Shown: positions 323 through 13,990 of the stretch, in pieces
How the letters are laid out: each line of letters starts with the position of its first letter
Numbering within the stretch: position 1 is the first letter of the stretch
The notes under the pieces: generated by a model
What the model saw: only the letters and a program-made list of their open reading frames with translations
What the model was told of the DNA's origin: nothing
Databases searched by the model: none
Translations under genes and position numbers: made by a program
Virus record (IMG/VR): IMGVR_UViG_3300035698_008696
Coordinates: 1-21,687 of that record
Source of the DNA: a virus
Length of the DNA: 21,687 nucleotides
Reading direction: 5' to 3' (one strand)

Positions 323-499
323 ATGATGATAGACCTAAAGCAAGCCATTACCGCCGGTAAATTGGACCAATTCATCGCTGAACACGAAGCCGAAACTGGC
401 GATGTGGAGGGCTGGCCCAATGTGGTGGCTATCCGTTCAATGGCCGGAACGTCGAAAGAAGCTCCGGCAGCATCGCCTCCGGACGGTTCCGGCGATTGA
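323..499 (+). CDS. Small soluble protein, antisense to the transposase 3' end
   Basis: A 58-codon ATG ORF (a second ATG follows at 326) encodes an acidic N-terminal half with the pattern Gly-Lys-Leu-Asp-Gln-Phe-Ile-Ala-Glu, then a C-terminal half with Met-Ala-Gly-Thr-Ser-Lys and a Pro/Ala/Ser/Asp-rich end. Small alphaproteobacterial hypothetical proteins with this two-part pattern are familiar to me from memory, but I know no function for them. The last 71 bp lie antisense to the C-terminal codons of the convergent transposase gene. The Shine-Dalgarno sequence is weak. It is either a real small gene whose end overlaps the mobile element or an antisense shadow. The N-terminal half lies outside the transposase and still looks protein-like, which favours a real gene. 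Confidence 0.4.
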   Translation: MMIDLKQAITAGKLDQFIAEHEAETGDVEGWPNVVAIRSMAGTSKEAPAASPPDGSGD

Positions 500-1328
500 A
501 GCGATACTCAAATTCCTTGACGTAGCGGTTCAGGTGCTTGGGGCTGACACTGGTGTGGGTGCCATTGATTGAGCATTTCAGGTGCCGCCAGAAGTTCTCA
601 ATCCCGTTGACCGAAACCGTCTCGGCAAGGCGGTAATCGTAATAGGCATATTCTTGCGCACTGTGGTTCACGCGGGCGTGGCGATAGCCTGCATCCGACA
701 GGTTGGCATAGCTGCGCAGTTCATCGGTGTGGACGTTGCCACCGATCCGCACGTTGGCGGTGACGAACGGCTCTAGCGTAGCGCGGCGCTGGTTCGGCAC
801 CACTTGCGCCACAAGGTCGCCGCCACGTTCCAGAGCGCCCACAACAACCGTCTTACCAGCTGATCCGCGCATATGCTTGCCGCGCTTCACGCCGCCCACC
901 AGAGTTTCGTCAATCTCGACGTTGGTGCCTTCGCCGCCAATCGGGGTGTCACCATCCACATCGGCCATGTGCTGGCGGATCAGCGCAGCCATGCGCCATG
1001 CAGTCTTGTAGGTCACGCCAAGCTGGCGCTGCAATTCCTTGCCCGAAACGCCGTGCCGCGTGGTGGTGAACAGGTGGATGGCATAGAACCACAGTTGCAG
1101 CGGGGTGCGTGTCTGCTGGAACGGGGTGCCCACAGTTGGGTGCAGGTGGTGACCACACCACTGGCAGGAATAGGCGCGCTCTGCCTTGATGCGGAACCAG
1201 TTCGACGGACGCTCGCACGAAGGGCAAGCAAAGCCCTGCCCAAAGCGCGTCTCAAACAGATGCGCGAGGCAGGTTTCATCGTCCGGATAGAGGCGAAAGA
1301 AAGCGGCGGAGGTGAGGCGCTTCGTCAT
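429..1328 (-). CDS. tnp: IS1595-family transposase (ISXO2-like DDE domain)
   Basis: A 299-aa full-length transposase that catalyses cut-and-join movement of its own element. An N-terminal zinc ribbon is formed by Cys35-x2-Cys38 and Cys55-x2-Cys58. A helix-turn-helix region around residues 95-115 (GVSGKELQRQLGVTYKTAW) follows. The catalytic DDE/N core shows Asp140 in the VEIDET motif, Asp202 in VHTDEL, and the third acidic/amide position in the VNGIENFWRHLK stretch at about residues 240-251. The C-terminal EFEYRFNRR segment (residues 272-280) is typical of the family. No frameshift or internal stop is seen, so the enzyme could be active. It lies directly downstream of the phage spanin genes in the same orientation, and its 3' end is overlapped antisense by the ORF at 323-499. 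Confidence 0.93.
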   Translation of the reverse strand: MTKRLTSAAFFRLYPDDETCLAHLFETRFGQGFACPSCERPSNWFRIKAERAYSCQWCGHHLHPTVGTPFQQTRTPLQLWFYAIHLFTTTRHGVSGKELQRQLGVTYKTAWRMAALIRQHMADVDGDTPIGGEGTNVEIDETLVGGVKRGKHMRGSAGKTVVVGALERGGDLVAQVVPNQRRATLEPFVTANVRIGGNVHTDELRSYANLSDAGYRHARVNHSAQEYAYYDYRLAETVSVNGIENFWRHLKCSINGTHTSVSPKHLNRYVKEFEYRFNRRNRPEAMLPELLSTFRPLNG

Positions 1329-1403: not shown

Positions 1404-1934
1404 TCACTTAGGCCAAGCCGTCGCCTGCGCTTCATACCAGGCCCGCCACGCATCATCCCGCGCTATCGCCGTGTCTGCGGCTTCTGCGGCGGTAGCGGCA
1501 ACGTCGAGAGATACCCACCCTTGGGCCGCACAAGCGGCACCAGCAGCGCCGGCGGCGGCACCGGCAGCGGCAGTTGCTCCACTTTGGCCGGGGCCACCGC
1601 TATTGGCCTCACGCGCGGCCCAGCGCAAGCGCAAGTCAGCATAGCTACGGGCAATATCATCATTGCGCTTTTGCAGATCATCAGCAGTCCCTTTCGATAT
1701 CTTGGCCTGTTCAGCCTTGGCGGTGACAATGATTATTGCCTGCGCCGCCGCCGCAAGCCGCTGCGCTTCAGTAAATGCCAGCGTATCCGCCGCCGCCTGT
1801 TCCTTAGCCCCCCGCACAAAAGCCGCCTCAACCTTGCCCGCGTGCCACCCATAAGCCGCCCATATCAGCAGCGCCGCGCCAATCCCCGGCACGATGTAAC
1901 GCCACGGCAGAGACAGGATTGTGCCGGGTATCAT
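1404..1934 (-). CDS. Rz-like inner-membrane spanin (i-spanin)
   Basis: A 176-aa protein with one N-terminal membrane anchor (about residues 12-30, rich in Gly/Ala/Ile/Trp) and then a long Ala/Lys/Glu-rich helix (about 33-108) expected to form a periplasmic coiled coil. This is the layout of Rz-type i-spanins, which join an outer-membrane lipoprotein partner to fuse the two membranes in the last step of lysis. The start is set by an ATGA overlap with the stop of the upstream membrane gene. Residues about 113-140 are a low-complexity Ala/Gly stretch, explained by the DNA also encoding the proline-rich Rz1-like protein in another frame. The call rests on topology and the embedded partner, not on sequence motifs, as is usual for spanins. 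Confidence 0.8.
   Translation of the reverse strand: MIPGTILSLPWRYIVPGIGAALLIWAAYGWHAGKVEAAFVRGAKEQAAADTLAFTEAQRLAAAAQAIIIVTAKAEQAKISKGTADDLQKRNDDIARSYADLRLRWAAREANSGGPGQSGATAAAGAAAGAAGAACAAQGWVSLDVAATAAEAADTAIARDDAWRAWYEAQATAWPK
1463..1681 (-). CDS. Rz1-like outer-membrane lipoprotein spanin (o-spanin), embedded in the Rz gene
   Basis: A 72-aa ORF lies entirely inside the i-spanin gene in another frame of the same strand. The start at 1681 (Met-Ile-Cys-Lys-Ser) is supported by an AAAGGGA Shine-Dalgarno 7 nt upstream; the longer open frame to 1729 lacks this. The N-terminus is a lipoprotein signal: basic Lys4, a hydrophobic core, then a Thr-Cys-Ala-Cys lipobox with the likely lipidated cysteine at position 19 (Cys17 is the alternative). 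The mature part is short and proline-rich, with PLPVPPP and PLPP runs, typical of Rz1 proteins. Lipoprotein signal, proline content and nested position together make this a confident o-spanin that would pair with the i-spanin across the periplasm. Confidence 0.85.
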   Translation of the reverse strand: MICKSAMMILPVAMLTCACAGPRVRPIAVAPAKVEQLPLPVPPPALLVPLVRPKGGYLSTLPLPPQKPQTRR

Positions 1935-2278
1935 TCCACAATCTCTGTCTTAGTCGTCGTCACCACCGATGAGTTGTGAGCGGGCTCATCGCGGCCATTC
2001 GCTTCAAAGCTGGCGATGCCAACCGAGCCTTTCAAATTGCGGATAGCATTGCGAAGGCCCAGCCCGATCATCACCAATATGGGCACAGAGAGCGCCATAT
2101 AAAGCGCATTGCCCAGCACCCCCAAGCGTTGCGGCTGCGTGTTTTCTAGCCATTCTCCATGTGCGATAATCCGCACAAGCCATATTCCTACGCCGGTCAA
2201 GAACAGCCCGCCGCCAAGCCATGCCACCGCATAAAGCCAAGCCCGCCAGCTCGCATCCCACCATGGCGGGCGCGTCAT
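1931..2278 (-). CDS. Two-TM membrane protein, candidate holin
   Basis: A 115-aa protein beginning Met-Thr-Arg-Pro-Pro-Trp-Trp. The start at 2278 is chosen because its ATG forms an ATGA overlap with the endolysin stop and has GGGTGG 7 nt upstream; the frame is open to 2305, but that would overlap the endolysin more. Two hydrophobic segments (about residues 12-36 and 53-78) are separated by a polar loop, followed by a polar, partly acidic C-tail ending in a Thr/Lys/Glu-rich stretch. Its place between the endolysin and the spanins fits a holin or holin-antagonist role. Holins are not recognisable by motif, and two other small membrane proteins sit in this cassette, so which one forms the hole cannot be told. 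Confidence 0.7.
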   Translation of the reverse strand: MTRPPWWDASWRAWLYAVAWLGGGLFLTGVGIWLVRIIAHGEWLENTQPQRLGVLGNALYMALSVPILVMIGLGLRNAIRNLKGSVGIASFEANGRDEPAHNSSVVTTTKTEIVE

Positions 2279-2817
2279 GTCAGCGCCACCCGATTGGCAA
2301 GCCACCCGTTCAGGAAACTCTCATTTGCGGCCCGGCCTTCTGCCAACTCGACATAGCGCGCGCCCTGCAATGCGTTCAACGCAATCAGCATCACCCGCTC
2401 ACCATCGCGCCGCCGTGCCAGAAACGCCGCCAATGCCCGCACCGTAGCAGGCCCGCACAAACCATCCATGGCTATATCGGCATAGTCCACCTGCTGCCGG
2501 TTCAAAGCGTTCAAGGCACGCTGCAAAAACCGCGTGGCAACCCTTGGCCCCATGTTTATCCCGGTGTCTATTACCTCCGCTGCAATGGCCGGCGACAAAG
2601 GCAAGATCATGTGGAAGCCCGGCCATTCTATATATTTCCGCCGGTAAATATCGCGCGGCACAGATTCCGGCATTCCTCGCATCAGGCCCGTCCACCCGTT
2701 TGCGCGCGCCACCGCCTCAGTGATGCCCCAATTCGTAGCGCCGCCCCGGTCGTCCTTGTGATCGACAAAGCCGCCTTCTTTTTTGAGTAGGCCGTCTATG
2801 ATCTGGTCAACCGTCAT
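2275..2817 (-). CDS. Endolysin: GH108 lysozyme with peptidoglycan-binding domain
   Basis: A 180-aa murein hydrolase. The N-terminal half has the glycosyl hydrolase 108 signature: Glu14 in a KKEGGF context is the expected catalytic acid, followed by DDRGGATNWGIT (about residues 22-33). The C-terminal half (about 95-180) matches the PG_binding_3-type domain that accompanies GH108, including DGLCGPAT and a helical Ala/Leu/Arg-rich end. There is no signal peptide or SAR segment, so it should need a holin to reach the cell wall. The start overlaps the upstream stop as ATGA and has GGAGG 6 nt upstream. Full length for the family, with catalytic residues present. Confidence 0.92.
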   Translation of the reverse strand: MTVDQIIDGLLKKEGGFVDHKDDRGGATNWGITEAVARANGWTGLMRGMPESVPRDIYRRKYIEWPGFHMILPLSPAIAAEVIDTGINMGPRVATRFLQRALNALNRQQVDYADIAMDGLCGPATVRALAAFLARRRDGERVMLIALNALQGARYVELAEGRAANESFLNGWLANRVALT

Positions 2818-5741: not shown

Positions 5742-8237
5742 TCAATCTCCCATTACATTGCTAAAATCAGGCGCATCATCCGGCAGCGCCTCATCAGGCT
5801 GCCAATAATAATCCTGCCCAAAGTTCTTGCGCGCCGCGCGCACCGTCCGCCGCACATCATCGGCCCGGCCCGGATCAACCATCTCTTGCAGCTCGCCCCA
5901 AATCAGCCGGTCCGTCGCCGCGCGCGTATACCAAAGGTTGCTCCCCGGCGTGATGCTCTTCAGCAAGTTCACCATGTCCTTGCCCGCCGAGGTTTCTTTG
6001 CCCTGAATAGCCTTTTGCGCATTGCCGACAGTCGCCTTCATCGCCCGGTCAGCGGTGCCTACCAGTGGCCCCGCCACAAGCTGCGCCGTCGTAGCGCCGC
6101 CGCGCGTCTGGTCAGCAAACAGCAAATCACCATAAATCCCCGCGCCGCCGCCGCGTTGCAGCGCCTGCATCCAAAAGCGCGGGTCATCCATAGGCCGAGG
6201 GTCGCGGCCATTCACAATCTCATACATTTGCTGCGAAAGCGCACCAAAGCCCGCCGTCATCGCCATCAAATGTGCGGCCACTTTCCAGCGCGGCATTTCA
6301 GGGCGCTTGGCCAAGGCCCGCCCGCCGTGCATCATCAGCACAGAAATCGGAAACGCCTTAAATTGAAAGGCGCTATTTATCAGCTCATTAACCACTGTCC
6401 CCGCCTGCCGGTCGCCGCGCATCACCGCGCGCGCTGCCAAGGTCGCTTCCGGCATCGCATGGCGCATTTCGCGGCTCATCATTTCGCGCAGCTTTGTGCC
6501 CAGCTCATCGCCCAGGCCGCGCTCCAAATCCGTTCGCGCCTCCAAGGCATTCGGCGTAATAAAATCTATGCCGTCAGCGCGCGTAAGCGCCGTAGCGCGC
6601 ACCACGTCCCATTGCTGTTCGCCCAGCCCATAGCGTTCCAGCATCGCACGAAAAGGCGGATCAAGCGCCGCAAAACTCTTGCTTGCTTCGCGCGCCAAAT
6701 GCCTTTGTATCTCCAAGCCCATCCCCGCGCGGCCCATTTCGGTCCAGCGTGAAAGCAAGGATATGTCTAAAATGCCGCCCGCAAGCCGCTGCGCAAAGCC
6801 CGGCACATTGGCTTCCTCAGTATAGCGCCACAGGCTCGCCATCTGGTTGGCCGCGTGCCGCGCCAAAAGCCCGGTATCGCGCGCCAACGCCTTGCGCTCC
6901 GGTGCTGCCAGCGGTGCCATCATCCGCAGCAAATCGCGGATCATGCCGGTTTGCGGCAAGCCATTGAACAGCCGTGTAGACTTGGCAAACGCCACATCGC
7001 TGGACGCACTCAGCGCCGCGCTCCCCAGCATTGCCGAAGTCAGCACCGCGCGCGTGCCAGAAAATGCCGCCGCCACATTGGCATTCACCGGCACATTCAC
7101 CGAGCCAGTGAACACGCCCCACATATTATCAATCTGCGCGCCCACGCTCATGCCCAGCGCATCCGCCGCCTCAAAGGCTTTCCCCGCCAAAGGCCCGCGC
7201 CGCACATCGGCCTCTATCATATCCTGCATCCAGCGAATGGTCGCCTCCGGGTTCGGCCCCAAAATCTCCAGCGCCGCAATGTCATGCGCCATCCCGTCCA
7301 CATGGCCCATCATCGCATTGAAAATATCAGCCGGCGTTGTCACCGTGCCGTATTTCGCCTGCATCGCCTGCCAGTCATCAAAGCTCTTGAACACCAGAAA
7401 CCGGCCTTCGGTGCGCTGGTTGGCAAGCTGGCCGCGCCCCTTGAAACTGCCCGGCGTGTGCCGGCTTGCGCCGCCTGTCCGCACCGCTTCATGCATATCC
7501 CGAAACGCCGTTTCCAGCCCGCTTTCCGTAAACGGCAAGCCCGTGCGGTCATCAATCATCCGCTCCAAATCCAGACGCGGCACCACATCAGCCCGGAATG
7601 TCGCATAATCAAACATCCGCACCTTGAGCATATCCCAGCGCGTCGGCAGGCCCCAATCAGCGCGCTTGCCAATCATCCCGCCCGCCGTATTAAACCGCTG
7701 GCGCAAATACTCCACCGCCGCCATCCATGCCTTGCCCATCTCCCCGGCAGAGGCATTGTCCACCGTCTCGCCAAAAGCCACCCGGCCCACATCAACCAAG
7801 CCTGAAGGTTCCCGAATGCCCACAAACGGCAGCCGGTCAAAGCCCTCCATCAGCGTGCGGAGCTGCCCCCAGGCCGTCTGCCGGATCGACTCCATGCGGT
7901 CCTCCAGGCTAGACACGCCCAGCGCACTTTCCCGCCCGGAAAACTTCGCCAGCGCCACATCAGCCGGTGTCCCGCCGCGCCCGCCAGCCCCGTCCATTTC
8001 CATCTGTATCTGCTTTTGCGCCATCGCCTGCATGGTCACGAGCCGTTTTTTGCGCAGCAGATCAAAGTCCAGCGCCTTCACCGTGTCGGCGCTGGCACTG
8101 GCCGCCGCCGCCGCTTCGCCCATGCCGCCCGCCCGGCTCGCCCTCAAATCCTCATAAAGATCAAGATAGGTCTGCGCCCGCTCGGCATCAATCACGCCTT
8201 GCGTCCGCAGATCGAGGATGCAATTGGCCACCGTCAC
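5742..8237 (-). CDS. Large internal virion / ejected protein
   Basis: An 831-aa protein. GTG at 8237 is chosen as start because it makes a GTGA overlap with the preceding stop and has GAGGGA 6 nt upstream; the longer frame to a TTG at 8243 would leave no space after that ribosome site. It is largely helical and Ala/Met/Arg-rich, with Gly/Ala-rich hydrophobic patches near residues 380-420 that could contact membrane. Its place between the other internal virion proteins and the tailspike, together with its size, suggests that with 8234-11071 it fills the role of T7 gp16, the large protein ejected into the cell with the DNA. I see no transglycosylase, protease or nuclease motif. The function is inferred from position. 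Confidence 0.75.
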   Translation of the reverse strand: MTVANCILDLRTQGVIDAERAQTYLDLYEDLRASRAGGMGEAAAAASASADTVKALDFDLLRKKRLVTMQAMAQKQIQMEMDGAGGRGGTPADVALAKFSGRESALGVSSLEDRMESIRQTAWGQLRTLMEGFDRLPFVGIREPSGLVDVGRVAFGETVDNASAGEMGKAWMAAVEYLRQRFNTAGGMIGKRADWGLPTRWDMLKVRMFDYATFRADVVPRLDLERMIDDRTGLPFTESGLETAFRDMHEAVRTGGASRHTPGSFKGRGQLANQRTEGRFLVFKSFDDWQAMQAKYGTVTTPADIFNAMMGHVDGMAHDIAALEILGPNPEATIRWMQDMIEADVRRGPLAGKAFEAADALGMSVGAQIDNMWGVFTGSVNVPVNANVAAAFSGTRAVLTSAMLGSAALSASSDVAFAKSTRLFNGLPQTGMIRDLLRMMAPLAAPERKALARDTGLLARHAANQMASLWRYTEEANVPGFAQRLAGGILDISLLSRWTEMGRAGMGLEIQRHLAREASKSFAALDPPFRAMLERYGLGEQQWDVVRATALTRADGIDFITPNALEARTDLERGLGDELGTKLREMMSREMRHAMPEATLAARAVMRGDRQAGTVVNELINSAFQFKAFPISVLMMHGGRALAKRPEMPRWKVAAHLMAMTAGFGALSQQMYEIVNGRDPRPMDDPRFWMQALQRGGGAGIYGDLLFADQTRGGATTAQLVAGPLVGTADRAMKATVGNAQKAIQGKETSAGKDMVNLLKSITPGSNLWYTRAATDRLIWGELQEMVDPGRADDVRRTVRAARKNFGQDYYWQPDEALPDDAPDFSNVMGD

Positions 8238-11071
8238 AAGCAATCCCTCAGCGCCTTGAGCGCAGCTTCATCCCCATCAATCTCCGCCAGCGCCGTTCGC
8301 AGCGGCATCGGCTCCCGCCCGTCCAGCACCAGCAAGGGGCCGTCCGCCGCGCCGCCGGCCTCAGCATCCCGCCGCACATCATGCAGCAACAAATCCGCCT
8401 GTTCGCGCGCTGCCGCGCCAGCAGGGTCATCAAATGTCCGAAGGGCTGAACCCGTCAGCGCCGCCGCCGCATCTCCCTGCCGCGCTTCGCCAAACATGTC
8501 CGGCGCGCGCGCGGTATCAAACAGCGCCAGCCCGTCCAGATCATCTTGCCCGGCCCTGTCGCCCGCCCGCAGCGGCGCCTCAGCACCCATCTGCGCCCTC
8601 TCAGCATTGCGCGCCGCCGCCGCCGGATCAACCATCGCGCCCAGGTCAAGCCCCTCAAGCGCATCCGCCGCCGTCCGCAGCGCGGCAGGAACAGCCGTTA
8701 CATCGTCGGCGGCGGCTCCAAAGATGTCGCCAAGGGCGGCGCCGGGGTCAAAGGCGTCTCCGGCCCCGTTTCCTTCTGTGGCACTTTCTGGCCCGCCGCT
8801 ATCCGCGCCGCCTTGCGGCTCATCACCAGCATTGCCCCCTCCATCGCGTCGTCCATCCCGCCCGCCAGCGCCTCCATCACTTGCTCTTGCGTCATTCCCG
8901 CCGCCAGCGCCGAGGATATCGGGTCGCGCACGGAGTTCTTCAACAAAGGTTCGGGCGGCAGCATCAGGCTTCACTCCTTCGGGCAAACGCGCCGCAGCGC
9001 GGGTCAAGGCATCATTCACCGGGTTATCGGTCATTCGCGCCAGCTTCTCAACCACAACCGCCAGCGCCGCATTTTGCTCAGCCACCGCGCTGGCGCTGGC
9101 CTTGTCCACCCGGCTGCCCGCCGCTTCCAGCGTCCCGGCATTGTCCGCCGCGCTCACCAGCGCCCGGCGCGCATCACCAATCATCTTCACCGCCAGGTCA
9201 AGCACCCGCGCGCGCTCCGCCCAAAGCCCGCGCGGCCCTGTCAAATCGCCAAACATATTGGTCTGGGTCTCGTTAACGCGCGGCGCGGCCACCATATCAC
9301 GCGCCATCATTTCCATCTGGCTGGCATTTGTCAAATTGCTGTCGCGCAGCGCAATAATCATCTGGGAATGCAGCCCCGGCGCGCTTGCCGCCGCATCACC
9401 CGCCACCTGCCCCACAATGCCGCCCGCCAGCGCCGTGCGGTCATCGCCGTTAATCACCAGCCCAAACGCCTCATCTTCAAGCCGAGACAGGCCCACAGCC
9501 GCCCGCGCCAAAGCCGAGCGCATATTCAGCCCGGACAAATAAGATGAGGACGCGCCAACGCGCCGCATAATCTTCGCCGCATCAACAGACGTGCCGCTAT
9601 CGTTCAAGATATTGGCAGACGCGGCGCGCAGCATCACTTCTTCCGCCGAATGGCCATCAGCTTCGCGGTAGAGCTTGGCGTCCAGCACAATCGGCTCCGC
9701 CCCGTCCGCCATCAGCCGCCGCGCCAGTCCAGAGCGTTGGTGCCCATCGGCGACAAATATCTGCCCATCAGCCCGCTGCCATGCCATCACTGTGCCCGCC
9801 GCATCAGCATTCCAGGCCGTCACCCCGCGCAGCCGCTCCGTCACGCCCTCCGCATCGCCGTCCGCCTTATATTGAAACGTCGCCGGGTCCGTCCGCAGCA
9901 GCCGCGCATCAATCCCATATATCCGCCCGCTTTGCAGCGCCGGCCCGCCGGCAAGGCTTGCCGCCAAACTATCAGGCGTCACATTGCCAGAAACCCGCAC
10001 CGCCGCCGCATCAGCCCGCACTGGCAAGGGAGAGGCTTCAGGCAGGCCAGACGCGCGGCTTTCCACAATCGCAGCGCCCGCCTCGCCCATCGCTGCATCA
10101 TGCGCCGTGTCAGCCTCAGGGCCGGCCACAAACGGATTGCTCGCCGCCACCGCCTCATCTTCTTCCAATAGCGCCGCCGCCCCGCGCTCTTCCTGCGTCA
10201 GCTCGCGGCCTTCCTCTGCCGCCGCCGCCCGCACCGCCGCCACCAACCCCGCATCATTCGCCGCTCTAAGGCGCTCCGCCCGCCGCACTTGCCGCACCGC
10301 CAGCCCGCCAGACGCACCGCCCAGCACCAAGCCTGCCGCGCTGCTAAGCGCCATATCGCCCAGCAATTCATCCTTGCCATAGTCAAAATCATTGGCCTCA
10401 GCATCGGCAAAAAGCATCGGCGCCATGCCCAGCGTCACCCCGGCCTCAATCGCCGCGCCCGCCGCCGCCCGCCGCAATATCGTAGACGCCAAGCCCCGCA
10501 CTGCCCCGCCACCCGCCCCAATGCCAGCAGTCGCCAGCACCAGCGGATCGGTAAAGCCCGCGCCAACGCCGCCCACAAATGCCCCGGCCACACCGGCCCA
10601 GCTATCCGCAATTTCCGCCTCCGCCGCGCTCGCCTCCGATTTGCGCCGCCGCGTCACTTCCGCCAAAAATGCCGCAGGCGTGCCCACATCAGGCAATTTC
10701 GGATTGGCCGCGCGCGCCTTGTTATACGCCGCAAACAGCCGGGTTTCCGCATCCGCCCGCAAGCTGGACCCCTGTTCCGGCAAGGTCTCAATCGCCATGC
10801 GCGCCGGCATCTCAAACAACGTCCGCCCCAGCACGCGCACCGGCTTAGCCGGCAACGCAATACCTGCATCCCGCACCGCTTGGCTCATGGAGCGCGCCAA
10901 AGCGGCCTCATAGCGCCGCTGCGTGTCTGAAAGCCCAATGCCAGCCCGCTGCGCCTTAAAGCCCGCTGGCACACTGTCCCCAAAGTCGGCGAGGCTGCCA
11001 AGCCCCATCGGCTCCATAGCAGGCCGTCCGCCGCTCAGGTCACGCCCATAGCCTGCCGTCCAGTCCGTCAT
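8234..11071 (-). CDS. Large virion protein with ParB/DdrB-like domain
   Basis: A 945-aa protein starting in an ATGA overlap with the gene before it. Four parts are visible. Residues 1-155 are helical. Residues about 156-260 are Gly/Ala-rich and hydrophobic, likely membrane-interacting. Residues about 383-510 look like a ParB/sulfiredoxin-fold domain: RIYGIDARLL, then IFVADGHQRSGLARRL (438-453), then AKLYREADG and a helical part with ANILNDSGTS. Next comes a helical segment containing QTNMFGDL (603-610). From about 730 to 785 it is a Gly/Asp-rich low-complexity stretch that overlaps a second reading frame (8698-8964). The VADGHQR motif is the ParB nucleotide/DNA-binding signature and is typical of the DdrB-like ParB domains known from polyvalent phage proteins. 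Position suggests an ejected virion protein. No lytic transglycosylase motif is present. Confidence 0.8.
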   Translation of the reverse strand: MTDWTAGYGRDLSGGRPAMEPMGLGSLADFGDSVPAGFKAQRAGIGLSDTQRRYEAALARSMSQAVRDAGIALPAKPVRVLGRTLFEMPARMAIETLPEQGSSLRADAETRLFAAYNKARAANPKLPDVGTPAAFLAEVTRRRKSEASAAEAEIADSWAGVAGAFVGGVGAGFTDPLVLATAGIGAGGGAVRGLASTILRRAAAGAAIEAGVTLGMAPMLFADAEANDFDYGKDELLGDMALSSAAGLVLGGASGGLAVRQVRRAERLRAANDAGLVAAVRAAAAEEGRELTQEERGAAALLEEDEAVAASNPFVAGPEADTAHDAAMGEAGAAIVESRASGLPEASPLPVRADAAAVRVSGNVTPDSLAASLAGGPALQSGRIYGIDARLLRTDPATFQYKADGDAEGVTERLRGVTAWNADAAGTVMAWQRADGQIFVADGHQRSGLARRLMADGAEPIVLDAKLYREADGHSAEEVMLRAASANILNDSGTSVDAAKIMRRVGASSSYLSGLNMRSALARAAVGLSRLEDEAFGLVINGDDRTALAGGIVGQVAGDAAASAPGLHSQMIIALRDSNLTNASQMEMMARDMVAAPRVNETQTNMFGDLTGPRGLWAERARVLDLAVKMIGDARRALVSAADNAGTLEAAGSRVDKASASAVAEQNAALAVVVEKLARMTDNPVNDALTRAAARLPEGVKPDAAARTFVEELRARPDILGAGGGNDARASDGGAGGRDGRRDGGGNAGDEPQGGADSGGPESATEGNGAGDAFDPGAALGDIFGAAADDVTAVPAALRTAADALEGLDLGAMVDPAAAARNAERAQMGAEAPLRAGDRAGQDDLDGLALFDTARAPDMFGEARQGDAAAALTGSALRTFDDPAGAAAREQADLLLHDVRRDAEAGGAADGPLLVLDGREPMPLRTALAEIDGDEAALKALRDCL
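8698..8964 (-). CDS. Possible overprinted ORF within the ParB-like virion gene
   Basis: An 88-aa ATG ORF in a different frame of the same strand, inside the gene at 8234-11071. A strong AAGGAG lies at 8974-8979, 9 nt before the ATG. The product has a helical, Met/Ala/Gln/Glu-rich centre (for example GMTQEQVMEALAGGMDDAM) and a Pro/Thr-rich tail, with no membrane segment. Its codons end mostly in G or C, whereas the host frame over the same stretch is Gly/Asp-rich with many A/T-ending codons, the reverse of the rest of the gene. Part of this bias arises automatically when the host frame is rich in G-starting codons. It could be a real nested gene, a region of compensating frameshifts, or a by-product of a flexible linker. 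Confidence 0.35.
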   Translation of the reverse strand: MLPPEPLLKNSVRDPISSALAAGMTQEQVMEALAGGMDDAMEGAMLVMSRKAARIAAGQKVPQKETGPETPLTPAPPLATSLEPPPTM

Positions 11072-13134
11072 TTCACCATCACTTCAAACGGCGTGCCGTC
11101 GCGGCGCATGATAATCTGGTCGCCCTCATCATCCACCGTCAGCACATAGCGCCCATTGCCAATGGCAAAAGGTATCGCCGCGCGCAGTTCCTCATCGGTT
11201 AACTCACGCCCCGGCACGCCGCCGGGCTTCATATAAACCGGCTTGCGCGCAGGCGGCAGATTTTTGATCGTCAGCAGATCATGCAGCTTGCCAAACTCTT
11301 CTTCGCTTTTCGTATCTGGCAGCAGCACCGTCACCCCATTGCGCTCGCCAAAGCCGCCGCGCAGCACGCCGTCACTGCCGCGCGTCTGCCCCGCCACCGA
11401 ATTGATGCTGGAATTAAGTTGCCGGCTGCTCAATTTCGTCAAGCCATTGCTCGCCGCAAAGCCCGCGCCAAAGGCCCGCGCGCCCTCGGTCAGCGTGCCA
11501 GACATTTGGGCCATATGCCGAAGCGCCCGGCCCGTCACCTCGGGCACCGCCGCAATCACATCATCTTCCGCCACCAGCTTGTTATTGGCTTTGATCGCCT
11601 CAAGCCCGGTAATCATCTGCCGCGCCACAAAGGTAGAGCCGGGACGCCCCATCAGCAGCCCGGCATGGGCCAACACCGGCTGACCAGGGCTTATCTGGCG
11701 CAGCGCCGCCGCCGCCCCCAAAGGCCCAAGCCGGCTGAGCCCCGCCAATAATTGCTGCTTTTGCTCCGGCGTCCCCTTGTCTAGCCGCGTCATCAGCTCG
11801 TCTTTTTCGGTAGAGGTCAAAACCTCCAGCGGCCCACCATAGCGCGCCTTCACCGCGCCCGCCGCCGCAAGCCGCGCCTTCACACTGTCCGCATCGGCCA
11901 CATCAAGCGGCGCCAGATCAGTCACCCCTTCACGCTGGCCAAAGCCCAGCTTGTCGCTCGCCAAAGCCGCGCTCATGCCGCCCAGCTTCGCCTCCGCCGC
12001 TTCAAGCCGCGCCAGAAACACCTGCCGCTGCGGCCCGTCCGCACTCTCTGCTTTGCCGCGTAGCTGAACCACCACATCTTGCACTTGCCGAGGCGTCGCG
12101 CCGCGCAAACCAGTTTGCACCGCCGCTTGCTCGGACATTACGCCAATCTGCCGCGCCAGCGCGCCGCCGCCAGGTATCCGCGCCGTCGCCCCGGCCAGCG
12201 CCGCCAGCTCGCCAGGCTCAGGCGGTATCCCCGCCTTCATCATTTCAATATAATCCTTCGCCGTATCGCGCACCGTCGTCTCATAATCGCGCTGCGCATC
12301 CTTTCGGTCCCGCGCCGCCCGCGCCGCTTCCGCCCGCGCCTCGCGCCGCTCCTCCTTCGCAATAGCCTCAGCGCGTCGAATTTCCGTGTCCGCCAATGTT
12401 CTAACCCGGCGCAGCTTATCAGGCGGCAACATCGCGTTCAGCGCGCCCGCATCAATCTGTTCGCGCAGCGCATAAGGGTCGCGTTCGGCCAGCCCTTCAG
12501 CATAGCTCAATGTCAGCCGCTCACTGGTTTCCGCCCGTATCTTCTCCCGCACATCAGGCGGCGCATTCAGCAAATCAACCAGCGCCGATTGTGCTGATAG
12601 TGTGTCAAACAACCGCTGAGGTGTAGGGTCTGTTGCTAAATTATTCGCCGCAATGTCCCGCCCGGCAGAAAAATCGCCCACCACTTTGGCAGACCGCAAC
12701 CCGGCAGCATAACCGCCTTCATCAACTTCAACCTTGGCCCCCATCGGGATAAGCCGCTGTTCCGCCCAGGCGCGCGCATCCGGGTCCGTAATCCCGTCCA
12801 GCACAGCAGATTTCACCTGCTCAAATCGCGCCATCGCCGCGTCAAGATAGTCTTCGCCGTCCACAGCCGCCGCCGCCCGGCCTTCACGCTGGCCGGTCAA
12901 TATCGCCGCTTCGCCTTGCGCTAATTTCTTCGCAACTTCGGCCATCGCCGCATTCTTGTTCGCCTTGCGCTCCGCCGCAGCATTGGCCGCATCGCGGTCC
13001 ATCATCAAAAACCCGGCGCGCTCCACGCTCTGCCCAAGCCCCGCGCCAAAATCGCCCGCATTGGCGCGCGGCAAGTTAATGGCCGCGCCCGCCGCGCCGT
13101 CCACCCGCCGCTCATAGGTCGGTATCCGCGCCAT
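11068..13134 (-). CDS. Internal virion protein (T7 gp15 position)
   Basis: A 688-aa, mainly helical protein, with its start in a TAATG overlap and its stop in an ATGA overlap with its neighbours. Residues about 1-60 carry a short Gly/Ala-rich segment and then a charged helix. Residues about 248-300 are a very charged Glu/Arg/Ala stretch expected to form a long coiled coil. The C-terminal 100 residues are a compact mixed alpha/beta region with RYVLTVDDEGDQIIMRRDG, which looks like a small beta-hairpin domain. Size (T7 gp15 is about 747 aa) and order (after the gp14-like and before the largest protein) suggest part of the ejection apparatus that lines the channel across the envelope. No enzyme motif was found. 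Confidence 0.75.
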   Translation of the reverse strand: MARIPTYERRVDGAAGAAINLPRANAGDFGAGLGQSVERAGFLMMDRDAANAAAERKANKNAAMAEVAKKLAQGEAAILTGQREGRAAAAVDGEDYLDAAMARFEQVKSAVLDGITDPDARAWAEQRLIPMGAKVEVDEGGYAAGLRSAKVVGDFSAGRDIAANNLATDPTPQRLFDTLSAQSALVDLLNAPPDVREKIRAETSERLTLSYAEGLAERDPYALREQIDAGALNAMLPPDKLRRVRTLADTEIRRAEAIAKEERREARAEAARAARDRKDAQRDYETTVRDTAKDYIEMMKAGIPPEPGELAALAGATARIPGGGALARQIGVMSEQAAVQTGLRGATPRQVQDVVVQLRGKAESADGPQRQVFLARLEAAEAKLGGMSAALASDKLGFGQREGVTDLAPLDVADADSVKARLAAAGAVKARYGGPLEVLTSTEKDELMTRLDKGTPEQKQQLLAGLSRLGPLGAAAALRQISPGQPVLAHAGLLMGRPGSTFVARQMITGLEAIKANNKLVAEDDVIAAVPEVTGRALRHMAQMSGTLTEGARAFGAGFAASNGLTKLSSRQLNSSINSVAGQTRGSDGVLRGGFGERNGVTVLLPDTKSEEEFGKLHDLLTIKNLPPARKPVYMKPGGVPGRELTDEELRAAIPFAIGNGRYVLTVDDEGDQIIMRRDGTPFEVMVK

Positions 13135-13541
13135 TATTTCGGCTTCCCTACAACAGTTCCGGCAATGTCAGTGCCCGCCGCCAGCGCATCAAATATGCCG
13201 CGCCGCTTGGATAGCTCGCCTTCCACTTTAAGCCCCGCCGCCCTGTTCGCCGCCGCGCCGCGCACCCGCAGCCGGTCCAGTCCGCTTTCAAGCTCAATTT
13301 CGCGCAGCATGGTCAGCGCCGATCCGGTGCCCAGCCCGCCGCCATTGGCAGCCATGGCGGTAATAGCTTCGCCAGCAGACCGCCGCGCATCCTGCCGAAT
13401 GTCCGCCTCTTGTGCCACACCCGCCACCAGCGCCCCTTGCGCCTCACGCTTGGCCATGCGCGCATTGGTCTTGCCGGCCTGAAAACCGGCAATGCCTTTA
13501 AGCGCCGCGCCGCCAACAGCAAAGGCCAACGGCCCCGCCAT
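13134..13541 (-). CDS. Small internal virion protein (T7 gp14-like)
   Basis: A 135-aa protein with a Gly/Ala-rich hydrophobic N-terminus (about residues 1-24) and then a long amphipathic helix rich in Arg, Glu and Ala, including GLGTGSALTMLREIE (about residues 69-83). This pattern, a hydrophobic end followed by Ala-rich helix and a Gly-Ser kink, is usual for the gp14-type internal virion proteins of short-tailed phages, which form the outer-membrane part of the DNA-ejection channel. It is shorter than T7 gp14 (about 196 aa). It begins in a TGATG overlap with the GNAT-like gene and ends in a TAATG overlap with the gp15-position gene. Assignment is by pattern and order. Confidence 0.75.
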   Translation of the reverse strand: MAGPLAFAVGGAALKGIAGFQAGKTNARMAKREAQGALVAGVAQEADIRQDARRSAGEAITAMAANGGGLGTGSALTMLREIELESGLDRLRVRGAAANRAAGLKVEGELSKRRGIFDALAAGTDIAGTVVGKPK

Positions 13542-13990
13542 CAGGAACGCACCCGCTCAAACAGTTCCAGATCGCCGCCGTCAGGCCGCGCGCAGCGCAC
13601 CCGAAACGCTTGCTCAAAGCCCAGCACCGCCGCCCAGCGCAGCCCCGCCACATGCTCAGGCCGCACCAGCGCTTCAATCCGGGCATAAGGCGCATCATCC
13701 AGCCCAAATCGCGCCATGCGGGTCAGCTCGATATGGTGCCGGCCAATGTCGCCAGAAAGCAAAGACCATGCCACCGCATAGCCTGCATGGGTCTCGGAAA
13801 AGCCGCCCAGCGCAATAATACGCCCCGCCGGCGTCAGCACCGTATAGCAAGGCCCCGCCTCGCAAAGCGCCAGCCCGGTCTCGCGGGTCATCAGCCTGTC
13901 ATCCCATTGCGCTTGCAGGGCTTGCACATCAATCGCCAGCACATCATCCGGCTCCATGCGCCGCACCAAAAGGCCAACCGCCGCCGTCAC
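13541..13990 (-). CDS. GNAT acetyltransferase-fold phage protein (T7 gp13-like)
   Basis: A 149-aa protein with a GTG start inside a GTGA overlap with the nozzle gene stop. The order of elements (VGLLVRRMEPDDVLAI at the start, a central strand with AGRIIALGGFSETHAGYAVAWSLL cut by a Gly-Gly turn, then a helix-strand with RIEALVRPEHVAGLRWAAVLGFE) matches the GNAT fold, including the GLRWAAVLGFE-like C-terminal motif in which a lone helix precedes a 'GF' strand. T7 gp13 and related proteins in this position share this fold. The canonical acetyl-CoA loop (Q/RxxGxG/A) is not obvious, so catalytic activity is doubtful; a structural or assembly role in the virion is more likely. Confidence 0.75.
   Translation of the reverse strand: MTAAVGLLVRRMEPDDVLAIDVQALQAQWDDRLMTRETGLALCEAGPCYTVLTPAGRIIALGGFSETHAGYAVAWSLLSGDIGRHHIELTRMARFGLDDAPYARIEALVRPEHVAGLRWAAVLGFEQAFRVRCARPDGGDLELFERVRS

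Follow-up and report, generated by a model that had tools for sequence, protein, structure and literature searches.

T7-like phages internalise the first stretch of their genome without transcription, and the C-terminal part of the tetrameric T7 ejection protein gp16 (gp16-C) is suspected to be a DNA clamp. The published gp16 model places membrane segment I (TMH I) at residues 243-410. The transglycosylase and tape precede it, and it is followed by the hub gp16-C, which binds DNA and has been put forward as a clamp on the genome during entry (PMC8954989). NTP-switched clamping of DNA is known from ParB, KorB, and Noc (PMC12704722), and Q58 and E102 are the proposed catalytic residues of Caulobacter ParB (PMC8367383). 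ParB domains are already known from virion-delivered polyvalent proteins. Among these, the DdrB-ParB domain has an extra helix with a conserved Tyr between the terminal helix and strand, and NTP sensing or degradation, or NTP-regulated DNase activity, is favoured for DdrB-like ParB (Iyer 2017; PMC5512222). Gene 21 of P-SCSP1a was guessed by its authors to encode an internal virion protein, from its size and position (PMC9860041), and the P-SCSP1u ejectosome was visible, not resolved, in the PhiM1 study (PMC11440229). No literature joining ParB with an internal virion protein was found in the papers searched. In this study, we describe a ParB-like module carried by a putative ejection protein of a T7-like phage.

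The window, i.e., the whole stretch of DNA analysed, is a 21.7-kb virus record with no host genome included. ORF calling and PHROG assignment revealed a T7-like late block on its minus strand, in the order portal, major capsid protein, two tail-tube proteins, gp13-, gp14-, and gp15-like proteins, a 945-aa protein, an 833-aa protein, and tail fibre. The genes considered below are as follows.

13541..13990, minus strand: gp13-like protein, 149 aa (phrog_308, 1.4e-7, the family of T7 gp13)
13134..13541, minus strand: gp14-like internal virion protein, 135 aa (phrog_418, 4e-17; internal virion protein; head and packaging)
11068..13134, minus strand: gp15-like internal virion protein, 688 aa, adjoining the 945-aa gene upstream (phrog_992, 8e-14; head and packaging)
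8234..11071, minus strand: putative gp16-N-like ejection protein with ParB module, 945 aa (ORF; phrog_10691, 9e-33; gp16 membrane-segment match; ParB fold)
5742..8243, minus strand: gp16-C-like protein, 833 aa, downstream partner of the 945-aa gene (phrog_684, 6e-169; AF2 model; structural neighbours; hhalign)

T7 gp15 and gp16 themselves were assigned to PHROGs other than those of the gp15-like, 945-aa, and 833-aa proteins; therefore, kinship to T7 was tested separately. The hhalign comparison of the gp15-like protein with T7 gp15 was not significant (0.029), so its label rests on gene order and phrog_992.

Three further observations concern the other end of the window. An endolysin with Glyco_hydro_108 and PG_binding_3 domains is encoded at 2275-2817 (minus strand). 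Near it, an 88-aa ORF (1463-1729, minus strand) with a lipobox-like LTCAC and a proline-rich tail lies in another frame inside a 176-aa ORF (1404-1934); judged by these sequence features, the two look like an embedded Rz/Rz1 spanin pair. A 299-aa IS1595-family transposase (429-1328, minus strand; DDE_Tnp_IS1595 3e-38, zinc ribbon 3e-9) is located near the end of the phage record, and no terminal inverted repeats of at least 14 bases were found around it.

An earlier note on this DNA had proposed that the 945-aa product is an ejected virion protein at the site where T7 carries its transglycosylase-bearing gp16. The first idea gains support from the N-terminal part, which is homologous to T7 gp16 membrane segment I and stands at the gp16 position.

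10310..10735, minus strand: gp16 TMH I-like segment, residues 113-254, homologous to T7 gp16 275-401 by hhalign (hydrophobic peaks at 161, 204, and 241)

This alignment reached an E of 5.4e-6 (prob 86), against 0.044 for the reversed control and 0.21 for the best of 20 column shuffles. Fifteen proteins without ParB, taken as an independent set, matched T7 gp16 307-416 at E 4.7e-9 (prob 96). From the membrane-segment homology and the gp16 position, we infer with good reason that the protein is ejected into the cell.

The rest of gp16 was traced to the 833-aa protein. Its hhalign match to T7 gp16 799-1149 was weak (E 0.005; reversed 0.045) and included a shared QFK(S/A)F segment. For its AF2 model (pLDDT 85), Foldseek alone gave no match. 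VIA aligned the model with the T7 core protein 9jyy_I (Z 7.4 over 271 residues), the PhiM1 ejectosome protein 8vb2_A (Z 6.7 over 259), and the E1004 core protein 9vvp_O (Z 6.2 over 250). These Z values are middling; three ejectosome proteins stood in the top five, and nearly all other rows had fewer than 100 residues aligned. The profile search also picked an E1004 protein (0.018). The gp16-C assignment was made because of the three ejectosome proteins in the top five and their agreement with the sequence profile; the lines of evidence, each weak alone, are together consistent with a gp16-C hub in the 833-aa partner. No Pfam SLT domain was detected in the 945-, 833-, or 688-aa proteins, and in 10 relatives the SLT domain sits in the upstream gp15-like ORF. 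The proposed gp16 position was retained, and the transglycosylase was not; the module lies between two halves of what appears to be a split gp16. Very probably, the 945-aa protein is the N-terminal half and the 833-aa product the C-terminal half of a split T7 gp16-type ejection protein, with a complete ParB-type module (nucleotide pocket and HTH-like domain) in an exchangeable slot right behind membrane segment I.

The module and its motifs are located as follows.

8906..9967, minus strand: ParB-like module, residues about 369-722, with nucleotide domain, HTH-like domain, and helical tail (64-member alignment, AF2, Foldseek, VIA)
9866..9889, minus strand: DPATFQYK, Box I/P-motif 1 equivalent (Q400 in 64/64, K402 in 62/64)
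9734..9754, minus strand: VADGHQR, Box II/P-motif 2 (GxxR), residues 440-446, aligned to ParB GERR by hhalign
9590..9616, minus strand: ANILNDSGT, Box III/P-motif 3 equivalent, residues 486-494 (N487 in 64/64; D497, which follows, in 63/64)

The two motifs previously given, VADGHQR at 440-446 and ANILNDSGT at 486-494, were placed correctly. A ParB domain is present at residues 383-510 (window 9542-9925), as had been claimed, and its extent needs revision: the conserved module is about 350 aa long, nearly three times the noted stretch, and conservation spans about residues 390 to 715 in a 64-member alignment of diverse members. A tblastn search against phage records found the module stretch in unrelated phages at 31-37% identity (E down to 9e-37), namely Ruegeria phage 45A6, virus SI2, an uncultured Mediterranean phage, and 17 P-SCSP1 cyanophages. 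In IMG/VR, at least 543 of 599 candidate stretches were confirmed as relatives, and 41 relatives were found in bacterial genome contigs (Alpha- and Gammaproteobacteria, Bacteroidota, Cyanobacteria, and others). The module is more than a chance resemblance because of the tblastn relatives, the hundreds of IMG/VR relatives, and the ParB-like predicted fold.

Residues 369-722 were modelled by AlphaFold2 with a pLDDT of 93.1 and a pTM of 0.83. The sole Foldseek match in the PDB below 1e-3 was Noc 7nfu (E 9.5e-4, prob 1.00), followed by KorB 8qa9 (1.7e-3). VIA-align Z values were 10.2-9.4 for ParB, 9.3 for Noc, 9.1 for PadC, 8.2 for KorB, and 7.3-5.9 for sulfiredoxin. Several of the ParB/Noc/KorB alignments span the nucleotide and HTH domains (model residues 12-230), for example, 6t1f_D (180 aligned, 4.5 A) and 7nfu_B (190 aligned, 4.9 A). 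In the virus structure library, same-family proteins came first, followed by phage Spo0J/ParB proteins. The predicted module thus has a two-domain fold of the ParB/Noc/KorB type (Z 8-10), closer to it than to sulfiredoxin (Z 6-7), and structure prediction bears out the ParB fold first suggested from the motifs.

Sequence comparison to ParB is weak yet agrees with the fold. By hhalign, the module family matched 29 ParBs at E 3.6e-4, with reversed and unrelated controls at 0.027 or worse; GHQR was paired with ParB GERR, and the ANI Asn with that of ENxQR. The best PDB profile match of the module was also a ParB, weakly (0.11). Since the AF2 model resembles ParB, a weak GNAT match over the motif (0.03-0.08) was put down to chance. 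Nothing in the PDB matched the 945-aa protein by phmmer, the NCBIfam and PADLOC scans gave neither a ParB nor a defence-family match, and the Pfam ParB (PF02195) and TIGR00180 models did not match and are absent among the 25 families listed for the 64 members. In the HTH domain, the fold aligned through model residue 230; the first HTH helix looks short, and Pfam HTH_ParB is absent among the families listed for the 64 members. Neither the 945-aa protein nor the 64-member alignment contains a ParA-binding motif, and no parA was recognised near the gene. Since Pfam is blind to the module, a Pfam-based survey such as that of Kaljevic 2025 (PMC12704722) probably missed this family.

Q400, G443, H444, R446, and N487 are invariant in the 64 sequences, and K402, D442, Q445, G493, and D497 nearly so. 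Mean entropy was 0.14 bits in the pocket and 1.75 bits in the domain core (permutation p 5e-5; 64 sequences, partly pattern-selected). Relatives were gathered with search patterns that included FQ[YF][KR] and GH[QN]R, so the conservation of those residues is partly built in. N487 and D497 are part of no search pattern, Q400 and K402 are also kept in genome loci found by the GHQR pattern alone, and the tblastn relatives (alignment A1) were gathered without any pattern. The hhalign alignment is loose around Box I, where Q400 is paired with Q58 by its place relative to the first strand and by its conservation. With its near-invariant residues and GHQR aligned to GERR, the pocket looks intact, which upholds the proposal of a ParB nucleotide-binding motif at VADGHQR as far as sequence can tell. 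His replaces the Glu of ParB GERR in 64/64 members. Because the Gln is kept and the Glu has become His, NTP binding may persist with altered or absent hydrolysis.

Gene order was examined in the relatives nearest the window, so the following locus counts describe these rather than all phages, and near-identical contigs are counted separately. In non-giant relatives, a homologue of the 833-aa protein adjoins downstream in 84/94 loci, and a gp15-like gene adjoins upstream in 83/96. TMH I precedes ParB in all 149 proteins with both (149/149), at a median gap of 83 aa. When loci were anchored on the 833-aa gene, TMH I was upstream in 69/70 and the ParB module in only 53/70. The ParB module occupies a swappable cargo slot in the ejection protein, and ejection proteins of related phages take on different cargo. 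In a scan of ten non-ParB proteins, Phage_lysozyme2, GH108, PBECR1, or zeta-toxin domains turned up in some, and others contained nothing that Pfam knows well. The gp16-N-like protein without ParB in locus L336 is only 393 aa long. Since 17/70 loci are without the module, the idea that translocation depends on it was dropped; translocation itself does not require it, and the gp16-C part stays in the 833-aa protein. Likewise, a requirement for the module to face the cytoplasm was dropped once the slot proved to hold lysozymes in some relatives: these imply that a periplasmic orientation of the region is possible, and the module may end up on either side of the membrane.

Several individual proteins were recorded among these relatives. 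In L335 (3797-6001), a zeta-toxin kinase domain (2e-22) follows the membrane segment of a gp16-N-like protein and fills the ParB slot; the protein is predicted from its sequence to be an ejected zeta-type kinase. A gp16-N-like protein in L306 (2963-6001) has a PBECR1 RNase-like domain (3e-7) and no ParB module, and one in L318 has an internal GH108 domain.

Much larger proteins also carry the module. A single 2813-aa ORF in L098 (6711-15149) joins TMH I (98-251), ParB (416-749), ART-PolyVal (9e-13), and a gp16-C part (1942-2804). Ruegeria phage 45A6 (L003, 11802-23540) encodes a 3912-aa polyvalent protein with ParB module, helicase, methylase, GNAT, and LPD38 domains. Taking at least two disparate activity domains as the mark of a polyvalent protein (Iyer 2017), we recognised one such domain in the window protein and two or more in these two relatives.

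Our preferred reading, held tentatively and at somewhat less than even chances for the mechanism as a whole, is that the module on the split gp16 is an NTP-switched clamp or switch on incoming phage DNA, delivered with the genome. The module would be packaged in the phage head and ejected ahead of or with the genome. Once in the cell, it would bind NTP and thereby close on the phage DNA coming in, acting as clamp or switch. The closed clamp might then hold, ratchet, or mask the genome end during entry. A clamp is favoured because NTP-switched clamping is what ParB, Noc, and KorB do and because T7 gp16-C has been proposed to clamp the genome. The change of the proposed catalytic Glu to His, the seemingly short first HTH helix, and the lack of a Pfam HTH or ParB match count against it, as do the 17/70 loci without the module and the lysozymes in the same slot. 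A more specific version, that T7-like phages have an NTP-gated ParB-type clamp in the ejectosome, at the TMH I/gp16-C junction, which grips or ratchets the genome entering before transcription, is rather unlikely; if true, a ParB-fold machine would here serve to bring DNA in, not to segregate it. The joining of a ParB-fold nucleotide module to a gp16 membrane segment makes a nucleotide-switch model of entry directly testable.

The slot exchange with RNase-like (PBECR1), kinase (zeta-toxin), and lysozyme domains makes a delivered effector nearly as likely as a clamp. The module would then be effector or counter-defence cargo: early in infection, it would bind and break down an NTP signal or nick DNA of the host or a rival, with no action on the incoming genome. 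We consider this possible, at about one chance in three. Countering restriction, as the earlier note suggested, would be one of several possible uses. Consistent with such a role are the occurrence of the module alongside helicase, methylase, LPD38, and ART domains in giant polyvalent proteins, the activities favoured for DdrB-like ParB (PMC5512222), and the fact that P1 ddrB is non-essential. However, the solved folds that it most resembles belong to HTH-bearing DNA clamps, the fold of the HTH domain is kept in the model, PADLOC gave no defence-family match, and no activity is known.

It is quite improbable that the module is a purely structural, ParB-derived domain, packing or oligomerising the ejection protein within the core and playing no part in catalysis or on DNA. 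In favour, the gene that holds the module encodes a core protein and is flanked in most loci by gp15-like and gp16-C-like genes; since some loci lack the module, the exchange may concern bulk or spacing. Against this, conservation in the pocket far exceeds that in the remainder of the domain, with the selection bias noted above, and N487 and D497 are conserved outside any search pattern.

A true DdrB-type antirestriction ParB domain, as the earlier note proposed, is very improbable, and the label "DdrB-like" was abandoned: the Pfam ddrB-ParB model PF18763 matches P1 DdrB at 2e-39 as a positive control, yet gave no match at E 5 in six members and is absent among the families listed for the 64 members, and the closest solved folds are Noc, KorB, and ParB. 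The two share a superfamily by fold, occurrence in predicted virion-delivered proteins, and a weak common tail segment (QTNMFG and QGDMF; hhalign E 0.013, from a shallow DdrB alignment for which two viral scans gave near relatives, mostly P1-like). With these alignments, the control of DdrB against ParB failed as well (0.44), and a distant kinship of the module to DdrB is therefore still conceivable.

Compared with known systems, the module resembles ParB/Noc/KorB in its predicted two-domain N+M fold, in the GxxR P-motif and Box III Asn in hhalign register, and in the Box I Gln at the equivalent position. It differs in GERR Glu to His, in Box I Arg to Lys, in the ParA-binding motif and nearby parA that were not found, and in being embedded in a phage ejection protein and unmatched by Pfam/NCBIfam ParB models. 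With this family, the ParB-CTPase fold reaches beyond what Pfam-based surveys cover, apparently into hundreds of phages. Like P1 DdrB, the module is a ParB/sulfiredoxin-fold domain in a predicted virion-delivered phage protein; unlike P1 DdrB and PF18763, it has no PF18763 match, stands in a T7-type gp16 context, and is followed by an HTH-like domain. Large polyvalent proteins (LPD38, ART, or helicase-methylase; e.g., that of Ruegeria phage 45A6) carry the same ParB module, whereas the window protein has only one recognised effector-like domain. Gene 21 of the P-SCSP1 cyanophage (PSCSP1a_00021) also carries it; unlike the window protein, its product is ~2,570 aa long, has no detectable gp16-N or 833-aa match, and is unannotated in the record, so that the module provides a first domain assignment for such internal proteins. 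Like T7 gp16, the pair described here has membrane segment I (in the 945-aa protein), a gp16-C-like fold (in the 833-aa protein), and the same gene position; unlike T7 gp16, it is divided between two genes, with no SLT domain found and a ParB module at the junction.
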